NCBI GenBank assembly: GCA_024998815.1
Contig: JACEUQ010000002.1
Location: forward strand, 758,501-822,500
DNA: 64,000 nucleotides
Direction: 5' to 3'
Origin: Opitutus sp.
GTDB lineage: Bacteria; Verrucomicrobiota; Verrucomicrobiia; Opitutales; Opitutaceae
Position numbers and translations under genes: made by a program. Each line of letters starts with the position of its first letter. Positions within the stretch are counted from its first letter, which is position 1. Below, piece after piece: positions 17,900-63,195 of this stretch. The notes under the pieces are model-generated. The model saw only the letters and a program-made list of their open reading frames with translations. It was not told where the DNA came from and did not search any database.

Positions 17900-17949
17900 C
17901 CAAGTTCCTCCCTCGCCCCCGTATCACGCCCCGCTTGTTTCCCTGACCA

Positions 17950-17990
17950 CCAAGCCAAAGTGTCACCTAATAGGTGACACTTTGGCTTGG
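17950..17990. repeat. R4 palindrome (41 nt), left copy
   Basis: An odd-length palindrome with arms CCAAGCCAAAGTGTCACCTA and its inverse around one central base. It could act as a terminator-like hairpin for the 73-aa gene. An identical copy at 18452-18492 lies on the other side of the inserted MITE block. Further copies are split by IS1182 (8.8 kb) and IS1380 (28.4 kb). Confidence 0.9.
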
Positions 17991-17991
17991 G

Positions 17992-18206
17992 CTGGAGTTT
18001 GGCCCCAAAACGAGTTGAGATCCGTCCCCCCAGCTAAGGTAGAAGCTTACCGCAGGTAGCAACGGCATGGGTTTCGATGCGTTCGTTGACGTGCGGGTGG
18101 CTGTTGCGAAGTCTGCGAAACTCTCCGGAGTGATCAGCTCAGATCGCCATACATGATGCGCCGCACCTGTGTGGTTCTTGGCACGAGTTAAACGGCCAAA
18201 CTCCAG
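17992..18206. mobile_element. MITE sharing ends with the AbrB/transposase element (215 bp)
   Basis: Begins CTGGAGTTTGGCCCCAAAA and ends GGCCAAACTCCAG, the same 13-bp terminal inverted repeat as the 1820-bp elements at 57.7 and 59.6 kb. The interior has short matches to the transposase end of those elements (GAAGTCTGCGAAACTCTC versus GAAGTCGGAGAAACTCTC). It has no gene. It is followed directly by the 244-bp block also found after the second big element. Confidence 0.8.
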
Positions 18207-18450
18207 ACCTTGAGCTCACGCTCAAGGCCACGTTCGGGCGGGTGCGGCCTGGAGTGTGCCTTTGCCTGGGTGGCTTTGGCTCGGTGTGGCTTCGTGCGTG
18301 AGCACGAGGTGTTTTTTCTGGCTGCGGTGCGCCGAATCCTTGAGCTCACGCTCAAGGCCACAAGGAGTGTGTTCGCGAAGAGTGTGGCCTTGAGCGTGAG
18401 CTCAAGGATTCGGCTGATCTGCGTTCGACTAGTCAGGGGCCAAACTCCAG
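18207..18450. repeat. 244-bp block with nested R1 arms, copy 1
   Basis: The block contains one single R1 arm and one full R1 hairpin pair and ends ACTAGTCAGGGGCCAAACTC CAG, the same end as the AbrB/transposase element. A copy of identical length and apparently identical sequence occurs at 61382-61625. In both places it sits immediately after a GGCCAAACTCCAG end. Confidence 0.85.
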
Positions 18451-18451
18451 A

Positions 18452-18492
18452 CCAAGCCAAAGTGTCACCTAATAGGTGACACTTTGGCTTGG
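18452..18492. repeat. R4 palindrome (41 nt), right copy
   Basis: Identical to 17950-17990. With one extra base on each side the two make a 43-bp direct repeat (17949-17991 and 18451-18493) that brackets the 459-bp insertion exactly, as a target-site duplication would. Confidence 0.9.
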
Positions 18493-18552
18493 GCGAATGA
18501 GGAAACTGGGGGGTGGGGGGAGGGGCGGCGGTTAGATCGCTAGAGTGCTGAT

Positions 18553-35380: not shown

Positions 35381-35566
35381 ATGGCCAAAGCCACCAAGAC
35401 CGTTAAGAAAGTTGTCGCTGCCAAGAAGCCCGTCGCTGCCAAGAAGGCTGTCGTCGCCAAGAAGGCCGTCGCTGCTAAGAAGCCCGTCGTCGCCGCTAAG
35501 AAGGCTGTCGTCGCCAAGAAGCCCGTCGTAGCTGCCAAGAAGGCCGTCGTCGCCAAGAAGAAGTAA
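35381..35566 (+). CDS. Lys/Ala-rich histone H1-like protein (61 aa)
   Basis: Nearly the whole protein is repeated AAKKPVAAKKAVVAKK-type units, like the tails of eukaryotic H1 and bacterial Hc1/AlgP proteins that bind and compact DNA non-specifically. The coding DNA is itself a tandem repeat, so the number of units may vary. It has a hairpin-rich leader and a strong terminator, so it is a monocistronic and probably well-expressed gene. Confidence 0.9.
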   Translation: MAKATKTVKKVVAAKKPVAAKKAVVAKKAVAAKKPVVAAKKAVVAKKPVVAAKKAVVAKKK

Positions 35567-35593
35567 CGAGCCCGTCTCGCTGCCTTTTTAAGG

Positions 35594-57707: not shown

Positions 57708-57724
57708 GGCCGCCTTCGGCGGCA
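57708..57724. repeat. 17-bp hairpin direct repeat, copy 1
   Basis: GGCCGCCTTCGGCGGCA, a hairpin GCCGCC/GGCGGC with TTC loop plus one base each side. Identical copies are at 59545-59561 and 61626-61642. They bracket and separate the two tandem elements. Confidence 0.95.
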
Positions 57725-57774
57725 CTGGAGTTTGGCCCCAAAAGCAGGTGGATGCGAAGCGGCCGGAGGCCCGG

Positions 57775-59187
57775 TTACGCAGCGCGGAAGAGTGCTTCAG
57801 CCAAGAAGGGTGGCGCTTTTGATGAGTTCGTGGAGGGAGGGTCGGTCGACGTGAAGTCGGAGAAACTCTCTGGGGCGATCTGGTCGGCCCAGCATTCGCT
57901 GCGCAGGGTGCGCAAGAGGTCCCCCGTGGAACTGGTCGCAGGCGAGGCGCCCGAAGAGTGCGTGCGCCATTTGGGCGGGCGAAGATGCGGCGGCGGATCA
58001 GGGGTTTGCCCCGCAGGATCGCCGAAGAGCAGGGCGGCGATTAACAACAGCGCATAGGCGGCGACGGTGGCGGCGGGTTGGTTGCGGTTGGAGGCGGCGG
58101 TGCGCAGTTGTGCCTGGCCGGTGCCGATCAGGGTTTTCTCATCCCGGAAGTTTCCCTCGATGCCCCAACGCCAGAGGTAATACTGGAGTTGGTCACCCAC
58201 GGGCATATCCGGGTCGGTGCAAACCAAGAAGGCAGGCTGGCGATAGAGCAGCTTCGAGCCTGCGCGCAATCGGTAGCCCACCGGGGCGATCACCATGACT
58301 TGCAACGGGAGCGTCGCCCCGGCTTTACGCCACAGCACCGGCCCGAGGGTCTTGATTTTAAAGGTGTGCTTTTTTCCGGCCGCATAAGCCTCGACGCTTT
58401 GCCAGGCCACGGTGTCGTCGGTGCGCAGCTCTTCCGGGGTCTGGACCGGCGCGCCATAGACCGGCGGGCGACCGGTGGCCGCGGGTGGTCCAGGCAGGGC
58501 GTTGAGCACGGCGTCCCGGCGGATCCGGCCGATATAAACGGTCTTGGCGGGCAGGCCCTTGAGTACGACCGCATTGGTGTAACTGCCATCGCCGGCGACC
58601 ACCAGTTTGCGCGTGTCTGGCAGCGCCTGGCGAAGCTGCTGGATGCGGGCGAGCGCGACGACATTAAGCCGCTGCTGTTTTTTCTTCTCCGTGTACTGCT
58701 GAACCTCGTCGGTAGTGGCTTTTTTACCCGGCTTTGGCGGCGTCGGCGCGTGGGTGAAATCCACCGGAATCATCCGGGCGTGTCCGTCGGAACCAGGCCA
58801 GGCCGCAGAGAGTTGCACATAGCGCTGGCCGCGCACCAGGTTGGTTTGGAACGCGGGGCCGAGCGGATCGCGTTTCCAGCCGACGCCGTCGATCTTGACC
58901 CCGGTTTTGCGTACCAGGGTGTCATCGATGGCGGCCACCAACGGGGTAAGCGCCGGCAGGTTTACCTCAAGCTCATGGAGGACCGTGCGGAAAAGCCCCG
59001 CCGGCTTCACCCGGTCACGCGAATACAACCGGTAGTCGGCCGTCCAGTCCTGCTGGGCACGCCCGCACAGACAAATCAGGTTGGTAAGAGTCCCCCGGCA
59101 CGGTGAAACCAGTGCCGCCATGAGATGCCCCTGCAGTCTCCGGGCGCACTCGGGGGCGGCGCAAGCCGCAGCACAAGCCCGTTTCAT
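57775..59187 (-). CDS. DDE transposase (IS4/IS701-like), copy A
   Basis: A 470-aa transposase. VAAIDDTLVRKTGVKIDGVGWKRDPLG includes the first Asp, VVAGDGSYTNAVVLKGLP the second, and YLWRWGIEGNFRDEKTLIGTGQAQLR the YREK-type segment with the Glu. The start at 59187 (MKRACAAACAAPECA) overlaps the stop of the AbrB-like gene as ATGA, arguing for coupled translation and against the earlier Met at 59217. I cannot name the IS family with certainty. Confidence 0.88.
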   Translation of the reverse strand: MKRACAAACAAPECARRLQGHLMAALVSPCRGTLTNLICLCGRAQQDWTADYRLYSRDRVKPAGLFRTVLHELEVNLPALTPLVAAIDDTLVRKTGVKIDGVGWKRDPLGPAFQTNLVRGQRYVQLSAAWPGSDGHARMIPVDFTHAPTPPKPGKKATTDEVQQYTEKKKQQRLNVVALARIQQLRQALPDTRKLVVAGDGSYTNAVVLKGLPAKTVYIGRIRRDAVLNALPGPPAATGRPPVYGAPVQTPEELRTDDTVAWQSVEAYAAGKKHTFKIKTLGPVLWRKAGATLPLQVMVIAPVGYRLRAGSKLLYRQPAFLVCTDPDMPVGDQLQYYLWRWGIEGNFRDEKTLIGTGQAQLRTAASNRNQPAATVAAYALLLIAALLFGDPAGQTPDPPPHLRPPKWRTHSSGASPATSSTGDLLRTLRSECWADQIAPESFSDFTSTDPPSTNSSKAPPFLAEALFRAA

Positions 59188-59441
59188 AAGTCGTCCCAGC
59201 CGATCGGATAAACCCAACTGGACTTTTTTTTAACGCCTACGTCCACCAGCTCGGGCGTGACCGGCATAACGGGCGCGACCAGACTGCGTGAGAGGACCAA
59301 ATGATGCGCGTCGGTGACGGTCCACTCGACGGCCTCCGACTTGGCGAACCCCATCGTCTGGGCGATGGAAGCGGGTAATGTCACATACCACTGCTCACTG
59401 TTTTTGCGGATGATGCGCTGAACTTTGGTGGTGGTGCTCAT
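59184..59441 (-). CDS. AbrB/SpoVT-like DNA-binding protein of the element, copy A
   Basis: An 85-aa protein: KVQRIIRKNSEQWYVTLPASIAQTMGFAKSEAVEWTVTDAHHLVLSR is a swapped-hairpin AbrB/MazE-type domain. A short tail ends in WVYPIGWDDL. MSTTTKVQR at 59441 is the natural start. It is encoded just upstream of, and overlapping, the transposase, so it probably represses or titrates transposase expression (inference from position and fold). Confidence 0.85.
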   Translation of the reverse strand: MSTTTKVQRIIRKNSEQWYVTLPASIAQTMGFAKSEAVEWTVTDAHHLVLSRSLVAPVMPVTPELVDVGVKKKSSWVYPIGWDDL

Positions 59442-59544
59442 GGTCCGACACCATCGTTCATGGCCACGCTTTTTCCCATGGGCCCGACGCCCCATTTATC
59501 TCTACGGCCTTCTCCGGGCCAACTAGTCAGAGGCCAAACTCCAG

Positions 59545-59561
59545 GGCCGCCTTCGGCGGCA
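59545..59561. repeat. 17-bp hairpin direct repeat, copy 2
   Basis: GGCCGCCTTCGGCGGCA, exactly filling the gap between the end of copy A and the start of copy B. Confidence 0.95.
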
Positions 59562-59611
59562 CTGGAGTTTGGCCCCAAAAGCAGGTGGATGCGAAGCGGC
59601 CGGAGGCCCGG

Positions 59612-61024
59612 TTACGCAGCGCGGAAGAGTGCTTCAGCCAAGAAGGGTGGCGCTTTTGATGAGTTCGTGGAGGGAGGGTCGGTCGACGTGAAGTCGGAGA
59701 AACTCTCTGGGGCGATCTGGTCGGCCCAGCATTCGCTGCGCAGGGTGCGCAAGAGGTCCCCCGTGGAACTGGTCGCAGGCGAGGCGCCCGAAGAGTGCGT
59801 GCGCCATTTGGGCGGGCGAAGATGCGGCGGCGGATCAGGGGTTTGCCCCGCAGGATCGCCGAAGAGCAGGGCGGCGATTAACAACAGCGCATAGGCGGCG
59901 ACGGTGGCGGCGGGTTGGTTGCGGTTGGAGGCGGCGGTGCGCAGTTGTGCCTGGCCGGTGCCGATCAGGGTTTTCTCATCCCGGAAGTTTCCCTCGATGC
60001 CCCAACGCCAGAGGTAATACTGGAGTTGGTCACCCACGGGCATATCCGGGTCGGTGCAAACCAAGAAGGCAGGCTGGCGATAGAGCAGCTTCGAGCCTGC
60101 GCGCAATCGGTAGCCCACCGGGGCGATCACCATGACTTGCAACGGGAGCGTCGCCCCGGCTTTACGCCACAGCACCGGCCCGAGGGTCTTGATTTTAAAG
60201 GTGTGCTTTTTTCCGGCCGCATAAGCCTCGACGCTTTGCCAGGCCACGGTGTCGTCGGTGCGCAGCTCTTCCGGGGTCTGGACCGGCGCGCCATAGACCG
60301 GCGGGCGACCGGTGGCCGCGGGTGGTCCAGGCAGGGCGTTGAGCACGGCGTCCCGGCGGATCCGGCCGATATAAACGGTCTTGGCGGGCAGGCCCTTGAG
60401 TACGACCGCATTGGTGTAACTGCCATCGCCGGCGACCACCAGTTTGCGCGTGTCTGGCAGCGCCTGGCGAAGCTGCTGGATGCGGGCGAGCGCGACGACA
60501 TTAAGCCGCTGCTGTTTTTTCTTCTCCGTGTACTGCTGAACCTCGTCGGTAGTGGCTTTTTTACCCGGCTTTGGCGGCGTCGGCGCGTGGGTGAAATCCA
60601 CCGGAATCATCCGGGCGTGTCCGTCGGAACCAGGCCAGGCCGCAGAGAGTTGCACATAGCGCTGGCCGCGCACCAGGTTGGTTTGGAACGCGGGGCCGAG
60701 CGGATCGCGTTTCCAGCCGACGCCGTCGATCTTGACCCCGGTTTTGCGTACCAGGGTGTCATCGATGGCGGCCACCAACGGGGTAAGCGCCGGCAGGTTT
60801 ACCTCAAGCTCATGGAGGACCGTGCGGAAAAGCCCCGCCGGCTTCACCCGGTCACGCGAATACAACCGGTAGTCGGCCGTCCAGTCCTGCTGGGCACGCC
60901 CGCACAGACAAATCAGGTTGGTAAGAGTCCCCCGGCACGGTGAAACCAGTGCCGCCATGAGATGCCCCTGCAGTCTCCGGGCGCACTCGGGGGCGGCGCA
61001 AGCCGCAGCACAAGCCCGTTTCAT
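59612..61024 (-). CDS. DDE transposase (IS4/IS701-like), copy B
   Basis: Translation identical to copy A (470 aa), with the same ATGA overlap with its AbrB-like gene. Both copies look intact. Confidence 0.88.
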   Translation of the reverse strand: MKRACAAACAAPECARRLQGHLMAALVSPCRGTLTNLICLCGRAQQDWTADYRLYSRDRVKPAGLFRTVLHELEVNLPALTPLVAAIDDTLVRKTGVKIDGVGWKRDPLGPAFQTNLVRGQRYVQLSAAWPGSDGHARMIPVDFTHAPTPPKPGKKATTDEVQQYTEKKKQQRLNVVALARIQQLRQALPDTRKLVVAGDGSYTNAVVLKGLPAKTVYIGRIRRDAVLNALPGPPAATGRPPVYGAPVQTPEELRTDDTVAWQSVEAYAAGKKHTFKIKTLGPVLWRKAGATLPLQVMVIAPVGYRLRAGSKLLYRQPAFLVCTDPDMPVGDQLQYYLWRWGIEGNFRDEKTLIGTGQAQLRTAASNRNQPAATVAAYALLLIAALLFGDPAGQTPDPPPHLRPPKWRTHSSGASPATSSTGDLLRTLRSECWADQIAPESFSDFTSTDPPSTNSSKAPPFLAEALFRAA

Positions 61025-61278
61025 AAGTCGTCCCAGCCGATCGGATAAACCCAACTGGACTTTTTTTTAACGCCTACGTCCACCAGCTCGGGCGTGACCG
61101 GCATAACGGGCGCGACCAGACTGCGTGAGAGGACCAAATGATGCGCGTCGGTGACGGTCCACTCGACGGCCTCCGACTTGGCGAACCCCATCGTCTGGGC
61201 GATGGAAGCGGGTAATGTCACATACCACTGCTCACTGTTTTTGCGGATGATGCGCTGAACTTTGGTGGTGGTGCTCAT
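61021..61278 (-). CDS. AbrB/SpoVT-like DNA-binding protein of the element, copy B
   Basis: Identical in translation to the copy at 59184-59441 (85 aa). Confidence 0.85.
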   Translation of the reverse strand: MSTTTKVQRIIRKNSEQWYVTLPASIAQTMGFAKSEAVEWTVTDAHHLVLSRSLVAPVMPVTPELVDVGVKKKSSWVYPIGWDDL

Positions 61279-61381
61279 GGTCCGACACCATCGTTCATGG
61301 CCACGCTTTTTCCCATGGGCCCGACGCCCCATTTATCTCTACGGCCTTCTCCGGGCCAACTAGTCAGAGGCCAAACTCCAG

Positions 61382-61625
61382 ACCTTGAGCTCACGCTCAA
61401 GGCCACGTTCGGGCGGGTGCGGCCTGGAGTGTGCCTTTGCCTGGGTGGCTTTGGCTCGGTGTGGCTTCGTGCGTGAGCACGAGGTGTTTTTTCTGGCTGC
61501 GGTGCGCCGAATCCTTGAGCTCACGCTCAAGGCCACAAGGAGTGTGTTCGCGAAGAGTGTGGCCTTGAGCGTGAGCTCAAGGATTCGGCTGATCTGCGTT
61601 CGACTAGTCAGGGGCCAAACTCCAG
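61382..61625. repeat. 244-bp block with nested R1 arms, copy 2
   Basis: Same as 18207-18450. It starts directly after the GGCCAAACTCCAG end of copy B and finishes with another GGCCAAACTCCAG, then the third 17-bp hairpin. It may be a tail acquired by some members of the element family. Confidence 0.85.
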
Positions 61626-61642
61626 GGCCGCCTTCGGCGGCA
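61626..61642. repeat. 17-bp hairpin direct repeat, copy 3
   Basis: GGCCGCCTTCGGCGGCA, the right boundary of the whole 57725-61625 insertion. Confidence 0.95.
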
Positions 61643-62104: not shown

Positions 62105-63195
62105 TATTGTATCCGCTTTGTAGATGGGACGAAAAGCCGTGCGAATCACTTGTAGCGAGGGGGATCAGCAATCCCTAGAAAAACGGGCAACCAGCCGGAT
62201 TGAGTCGAGGCAGCGAGTTGAGCGCGCCCGGATGATCCTTGGGTGCGTGAGTGGCGAGCAGGTGCAAGAGGTGGCGCGCCGCTGCAACACCAGGCCGAAC
62301 ACCGTAATAAAGTGGAGGGATCGCTTTGTGCTGCTTGGCATGAAGGGGCTGGATGATGCGGCACGGCCGGGCGCGAAGCGCACCTACGGTGAGGACTTTC
62401 GAGATCGGGTGCTGGCTTTATTGGAAGGGCCACCCCCTCCGGGGCAGGCGCGCTGGGATGGTCCAGCGGTGGCCCGTGTGCTCGGCGGCTCGGTGCACGC
62501 GGTCTGGCGAGTGCTGCGCAAGGAGGGCATTTGCCTGCAGCGCCAGCGCTCGTGGTGCGTGAGCACTGACAAGCAGTTCGCAGCCAAGGCAGCCGATATC
62601 GTCGGGCTCTACCTGAGCCCACCGGAAAAGGCATTGGTGATAAGTGTGGATGAAAAGCCTGGCATCCAAGCCCTAGAGCGCGCCACCGGTTACGTGGAGA
62701 CCGACAATGGTAAAATCGTCCAGGGACTCAAAAGCACCTACAAGCGCCACGGTACACTCAACTTGTTCGCTGCCCTTGATGTGGCCACGGGCTTGATCAA
62801 GACGCAGAAAACCACCCTTAAGCGCCGGGAGGAGTTCCTGCTGTTCATGGACCAAGTGGTGGCGGATCACCCGCCCGAGAGAGAACTCCACGTGATTTTG
62901 GATAATTATTGCACCCACAAAAAGTGCGACGCTTGGCTCGCTCGGCACCCCAATGTCCACTTCCACTTTACCCCAACCTCGGCGAGTTGGCTCAATCAAG
63001 TTGAAATCTGGTTCGGCATACTAACAAGGAAGGCGCTACGGGGCGCGAACTTCAGAAGCGTCGCCGAACTTAGTCAGGCCATTGACGCTTTCGTCGCCGC
63101 CTACCTGCCCAATGCCAAGCCGTTCAAGTGGCGCAAGCGCGAGGTCAAGGGAAGCCAACTCAGAAATACTATCATTAATCTACGCAATTAAGCAC
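62081..63195 (+). mobile_element. IS630-family insertion sequence (1115 bp)
   Basis: Inverted ends GTGCTTACTTGCAATAATAA and, read inward from the right, GTGCTTAATTGCGTAGATTA (imperfect). Flanked by TA on each side (62079-62080 and 63196-63197), the standard IS630 target. Confidence 0.9.
62124..63191 (+). CDS. IS630 family transposase
   Basis: A 355-aa transposase. The N-terminal double helix-turn-helix has VQEVARRCNTRPNTVIKWRDRF and a winged-helix part. The catalytic triad lies in LVISVDEKPGIQALER, HVILDNYCTHK and FTPTSASWLNQVEIWFGIL (D, D, E). Single intact frame, so the element may be active. Confidence 0.95.
   Translation: MGRKAVRITCSEGDQQSLEKRATSRIESRQRVERARMILGCVSGEQVQEVARRCNTRPNTVIKWRDRFVLLGMKGLDDAARPGAKRTYGEDFRDRVLALLEGPPPPGQARWDGPAVARVLGGSVHAVWRVLRKEGICLQRQRSWCVSTDKQFAAKAADIVGLYLSPPEKALVISVDEKPGIQALERATGYVETDNGKIVQGLKSTYKRHGTLNLFAALDVATGLIKTQKTTLKRREEFLLFMDQVVADHPPERELHVILDNYCTHKKCDAWLARHPNVHFHFTPTSASWLNQVEIWFGILTRKALRGANFRSVAELSQAIDAFVAAYLPNAKPFKWRKREVKGSQLRNTIINLRN

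Follow-up and report, generated by a model that had tools for sequence, protein, structure and literature searches.

Duplication of whole stem-loops at palindromic target sites of a DDE insertion sequence in Opitutus

The length of a target-site duplication is normally fixed, in DNA transposition generally, by the distance between two active sites (PMC4940900). Members of the IS701 family make repeats of exactly 4 bp and those of the IS4 family repeats whose set length is about 7-13 bp (PMC2266710); judging by titles cited in the same paper, IS1549 and IS1634 make long direct repeats of variable length. Hairpins are a known target of elements with a DDE transposase: IS1272 and TnSha1, of the IS1182 family, insert at hairpins which share no primary sequence, and multi-ended composites of such elements occur (PMC5678879, PMC4923244). 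IS1272 removes its target hairpin and leaves no repeat. In pathway b of their Fig. 13, Wan et al. (PMC5678879) drew duplication of a whole stem-loop as a hypothetical course beside the hairpin-removing pathway proposed for IS1272. Here we describe an insertion sequence (IS) of Opitutus sp. which, together with its non-autonomous derivatives, very probably inserts at palindromes of any sequence and duplicates the stem-loop entire, by an attack that would fall on a cruciform. It was found in a 64,000-nucleotide stretch of DNA (the window; positions 758,501 to 822,500 of contig JACEUQ010000002.1), at 57708-61642, in a genome of 4.24 Mb assembled in three contigs.

The 17-mer GGCCGCCTTCGGCGGCA stands at 57708-57724, 59545-59561 and 61626-61642, exact in all three copies, and nowhere else in the 64-kb window. 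It reads G + GCCGCC-TTC-GGCGGC + A, i.e. a 15-bp hairpin with one flanking base on each side; the first-pass annotation, which took it for a complete hairpin placed at the outer borders and at the junction of the array, was right on both counts. Its description of the array as two tandem 1820-bp elements holds in part. The 1820-bp units at 57725-59544 and 59562-61381 show 0 mismatches, but the second mobile unit is a 2064-bp composite (59562-61625), made of the 1820-bp IS and, to its right, a 244-bp module (61382-61625) closed by another copy of the terminal repeat, and it is this composite, not the 1820-bp unit, that the right-hand 17-mer borders. The module is also the right half of a 459-bp element at 17992-18450, flanked in turn by a 43-bp direct repeat (ACCAAGCC...GGCTTGGG, at 17949-17991 and 18451-18493). 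This case, which the annotation had cited as independent, is real, and its remark that duplications of palindrome size are unusual for IS4- or IS701-like transposases agrees with the lengths quoted above. A chance origin of the window's repeats is excluded because of the flank data from the whole genome.

The 13-bp element end CTGGAGTTTGGCC occurs in 149 exact copies in the genome. Flanks were read at 53 loci fetched around known ends, every end within them being examined (loci are designated by L, genomes by G). Direct repeats were found at 44 end pairs; they measure 14-43 bp, each is a palindrome, and at many loci their sequences are unrelated while the elements themselves are unchanged. With the flanks of relatives read in four other genomes, 46 insertions were resolved, 33 from the genome itself and 13 from relatives, with 41 distinct repeats; L062 and L099, similar in appearance, were omitted from this set for a mutated element end. 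Inside the repeat, the paired fraction of mirrored positions is 0.80; the background value is 0.26, and a shift by one base gives 0.24-0.26. The repeat is centred exactly on the hairpin (p<0.01 in 44 of the 46), and the outermost pair coincides with the repeat edge in 12 insertions and lies further in by 1 nt in 30 and by 2 nt in four; the usual repeat is the stem-loop plus one base per side. A stem of at least 6 bp abuts 107 of 116 outer ends versus 1.2% of random positions. The target is chosen by dyad symmetry and the repeat, which is made at insertion, is centred on the dyad and tracks the stem-loop in length from 14 to 43 bp. That the hairpin is carried as a part of the element was considered and rejected, as identical elements sit on different hairpins.

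An exact pair of filled and empty sites is provided by L066, where a 459-bp derivative is interrupted by the IS at its internal hairpin. When the IS and one 22-bp hairpin are subtracted, what remains matches, without a difference over 459 bp, the uninterrupted element of L052, which is the same element as that at 17992-18450 of the window. This empty site, from the same genome, carries a single hairpin. More generally, among hairpins of the target families that are not interrupted, a second direct copy within 60 bp was present at 1 of 83. A paralogous site at 8.8 kb was rejected as the empty site of the copy at 18 kb, the palindrome being truncated there, and a comparison of L054 with G041 and G097, of the same genus, for the same purpose gave no useful similarity.

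The rule is conserved in relatives at about 32-48% transposase identity: duplicated hairpins flank the elements of G005 and G064 (about 46-48%), of G188 (L117) and of G176 (32%). A relative from Rhizobium/Sinorhizobium, at 26% identity, has CTNAG repeats of 4-5 bp without a hairpin; it is present in many copies on plasmids of Rhizobium and Sinorhizobium (L139-L149). As taxonomic anchors, the best are a fragment, 88% identical, in a metagenome-assembled genome (MAG) of Opitutus (L115) and a MAG of Verrucomicrobia subdivision 3 (L114), which make a host in or near the Opitutaceae probable.

The transposase carries a DDE_5 catalytic domain (PF13546, 44.3 bits against a cut-off of 27). Its nearest protein model, NCBIfam IS701_3 (NF049999), scores 157.5 bits, below the cut-off of 170, and is matched by all 14 aligned relatives. 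The IS701 (NF033540, 34 bits, cut-off 150) and IS4 (NF033591, 34 bits, cut-off 152) models are not passed, a weak match to the IS1634 model is found in 10 of 14 members (best E 1.2e-6), and no IS1182 model is among the NCBIfam matches listed for the transposase and its relatives. The YREK motif is complete, Y-(2)-R-(3)-E-(6)-K, in A1 (Y347, R350, E354, K361); in the 14 relatives the last three residues are invariant and Y347 is nearly so. The AlphaFold model (pLDDT 79.5) has the Tn5 transposase as its top match among Protein Data Bank (PDB) structures (4dm0, E 8.9e-10, TM 0.51), and the protein is thus predicted to possess an RNase H-like core in a Tn5-like architecture; a search of its profile against PDB sequences gave nothing meaningful. 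The small gene beside the transposase is weakly MazE/AbrB-like (MazE_antitoxin at E <= 0.1 in 6 of 9 relatives, best 1.1e-4), and it is kept in this position in most relatives.

How could a repeat of variable length be made? We lean towards the view that cruciforms are extruded in living cells and that a clade of DDE transposases joins element ends at their four-way junction, with the duplication length being read from secondary structure, not from active-site spacing, and with each insertion regenerating the landing site. The transposase would attack an extruded cruciform (or paired hairpins), and the two 3' ends of the element would be joined at the 5' foot of each arm. Because both feet would lie together at the four-way junction whatever the arm length, one fixed spatial geometry could give a variable linear repeat; gap repair would then copy each hairpin. 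Since each insertion would regenerate the hairpin, the site would stay usable, and its repeated use would give rise to tandem arrays such as that of the window; others are found at L035, L045 and L082. As for the composite second copy, the IS may have inserted within a 459-bp derivative, at its internal hairpin, as it did in L066, which is likely the precursor type of the 2064-bp composite, and the product would later have moved by the IS's own left end and the right end of the derivative.

Several observations weigh against this interpretation. The first-pass annotation had proposed that a folded palindrome is recognised and copied entire: the 46 insertions bear out the centring on a palindrome, but that the DNA is folded, as a cruciform or a hairpin, when attacked is something we infer. 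Its expectation of flanking repeats that vary and always equal the local palindrome is borne out as to variation and to the following of the hairpin, but not in every case as to extent: the repeat is 18 of 28 bp in L046 and 21 of about 33 bp in L081, each time the symmetric interior of a longer palindrome, and in L051 it falls short by one pair. Partial extrusion could explain L046 and L081, but this is an ad hoc argument. L050 is a degenerate site. An empty site with the same hairpin in a sister species was not found; the interval of G020 that matches L100, in the same gene neighbourhood, has single, undoubled hairpins, but they are different ones, and the evidence is partial. The short fixed duplications, or lack of any, that the annotation had named as counting against its idea were not seen among the resolved insertions of the genome itself, but relatives in G155 with similar ends (L123, L133) show neither hairpin nor repeat; this branch has no firm placement in the tree. 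Finally, no AbrB-like gene was detected in G176, even though the element there obeys the hairpin rule. Of the G155 copies, L123 interrupts a coding sequence at ADFYVAP/DGNPGT.

Other explanations have to be considered. One, possible but doubtful, is that unequal recombination between copies, and not two insertions, produced the three hairpins of the window. The same array would result from recombination between hairpin-IS-hairpin and hairpin-IS+244-hairpin, and the two IS copies do not differ; for the window itself the two origins cannot be told apart. Several copies, moreover, have unlike hairpins at their two ends (L048, L073, L076, L094, L119); this is the expected product of recombination between copies and suggests that such pairs mark rearrangements, and L048, L073 and L076 speak for the occurrence of the process. 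However, the parents would still need a duplication of the hairpin, and L035 holds three copies of one hairpin, shared by an IS and an oppositely oriented 458-bp derivative, an arrangement that recombination between like elements cannot make. In L103 (G064) the same stem is seen on both sides with the loops inverted (TTTAC versus GTAAA).

Another explanation would place the target in single-stranded DNA: a hairpin of the lagging strand or of a transcription bubble would be joined on one strand first and on the complementary strand later. Single-stranded DNA readily forms hairpins, and IS200/IS605 elements use single-stranded targets. We nevertheless regard this as unlikely, since a full direct repeat on both sides requires a staggered join on both strands and since the same repeated extragenic palindrome (REP) is used as target in both orientations of the element (L032, L037).

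The palindromes could also be recognised as ordinary duplex, by a symmetric transposase or an AbrB-like dimer, and cut at their outer edges without folding. Symmetric proteins on symmetric sites are common, and the retention of the small AbrB/MazE-like gene beside most of the related transposases fits with this; but the G176 element manages without a detectable gene of this type, the repeats vary from 14 to 43 bp without any common sequence, and their boundary tracks the last stem pair across irregularities of the stem. The repeat still covers the entire hairpin when the stem is bulged (L086) or has an asymmetric internal loop (L134). An illustration with a single mismatch is provided by the REP core GCAGACTTCCAGTCTGC: when preceded by AGC, it gives a repeat of 23 if TC comes then, of 19 if TT and of 17 if CT (L062 read directly), and in the TC case pairing resumes beyond one mismatch, between that C and the G that stands two bases ahead of the core. 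Recognition as duplex is therefore quite improbable. The last alternative, an ordinary insertion that makes a short repeat of fixed length in tandem hairpins already in place, could appeal to the 4-bp repeats typical of IS701 family members (PMC2266710), but it has next to no probability and is already contradicted by the present data, as uninterrupted hairpins are single, the exact empty site (L066/L052), a check the annotation had proposed, holds one hairpin, and at dozens of unrelated targets the hairpin edge and the element end coincide.

Insertion at a folded palindrome with duplication of the stem-loop can now be set against the systems described above. Like IS1272 and TnSha1, the present element targets hairpins without a sequence consensus and forms multi-ended composites; unlike IS1272, it duplicates the whole hairpin. 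It has in common with the IS701 family the DDE_5 domain and IS701_3 as nearest model, but its repeats are hairpins of 14-43 bp and it possesses the full YREK motif, which most IS701 members lack. This motif and the Tn5-like predicted fold recall the IS4 family and Tn5, from which it differs by the variable length of the repeat, which is not the IS4 value of about 10 bp. IS1634 and IS1549 resemble it as IS4-related elements with long variable repeats; the protein match is weak, and the cited titles do not extend to whether these repeats are palindromic. REP-targeting insertion sequences insert at repeated extragenic palindromes (PMC1525189); the present element uses and duplicates REP-like hairpins as well as unrelated ones. 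Cas1-Cas2 integrates the CRISPR spacer at the edges of a palindromic repeat on both strands, and so duplicates the repeat whole (PMC4940900), but the enzyme is unrelated and there is one fixed repeat per array there, against any genomic palindrome here. PATE elements, considered as a possible precedent, were rejected, being IS605-related and without duplications. Hairpin-targeting DDE elements are already known (PMC5678879, PMC4923244). The literature search, to which ISfinder and the Siguier 2014 review were external, returned no documented IS whose duplication equals a whole stem-loop. That review reportedly lists repeats of 0-60 bp for IS1182, and a precedent may exist there.

If this account is correct, the footprint would be set by the fold of the target, unlike that of most known transposons, and the insertions would constitute a natural record of palindromes extruded or folded in cells. 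The transposase could serve as a model for a DDE enzyme reading a four-way junction. The element would offer a cellular parallel to the duplication of whole repeats in CRISPR adaptation and a duplicating counterpart, formerly just hypothesised, to the hairpin-deleting IS1272.

Table 1. Features of the tandem array and of the 459-bp derivative, in window positions
Feature	Positions	Strand	Length	Remarks
Target hairpin, left copy	17949..17991		43 bp	41-bp palindrome + one base per side
Non-autonomous derivative (miniature inverted-repeat transposable element, MITE)	17992..18450		459 bp	IS-type ends, without transposase; internal third end
Target hairpin, right copy	18451..18493			flanks the 459-bp derivative
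Target hairpin copy 1	57708..57724	none		G-GCCGCC-TTC-GGCGGC-A
Insertion sequence copy 1	57725..59544	minus	1820 bp	ends CTGGAGTTTGGCCCC / GAGGCCAAACTCCAG; genes on minus strand
Transposase gene copy 1	57775..59217	minus	480 aa	DDE_5 / IS701_3-like, Tn5-like predicted fold, YREK motif
Small AbrB/MazE-like open reading frame (ORF) copy 1	59184..59495	minus	103 aa	overlaps transposase start
Target hairpin copy 2	59545..59561	none		junction between both elements
Composite	59562..61625	minus	2064 bp	moved as single unit; 2064-bp unit also in L046 and L072
Insertion sequence copy 2	59562..61381	minus		identical to copy 1
Transposase gene copy 2	59612..61054	minus		
Small AbrB/MazE-like ORF copy 2	61021..61332	minus		
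Internal hairpin ACCTTGAGCTCACGCTCAAGGC	61382..61403	none		IS inserted into this hairpin in another copy (L066)
Module	61382..61625	none	244 bp	right half of 459-bp derivative, bears third end
Target hairpin copy 3	61626..61642	none		

Besides the 1820-bp IS and the 2064-bp composites, the elements of the genome comprise derivatives of 459 and 329 bp, which contain a third end internally, and larger units that carry other cargo. In the three-ended structures, an IS with a captured derivative half moves by the more distant end, giving the 2064-bp composite (59562-61625; L046, L072). Group II introns of about 2.17 kb (Rfam RF00029) are found within the small derivative, close to its base 200, in L032, L037, L039 and L078 (two copies), that of L032 with a reverse transcriptase ORF of 602 aa; further intron-bearing loci (L031, L048, L068, L080, L082) were judged by size alone. 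Hairpin duplication has also accompanied the movement of the intron-bearing units themselves, and the intron seems to hitchhike on the hairpin-targeting element.

An IS630-like gene (355 aa) adjoins the window array at 62124-63191. Insertions of the same gene also lie close to the right ends of an IS copy (L081, 3501-6437) and of a derivative (L056, 1001-2576), and each of these host elements is flanked by an intact hairpin repeat. Elsewhere in the window, at 35395-35583, a unit of 18-21 bp forms a tandem run that reads as AAK-rich repeats (CGTCGCTGCCAAGAAG...).

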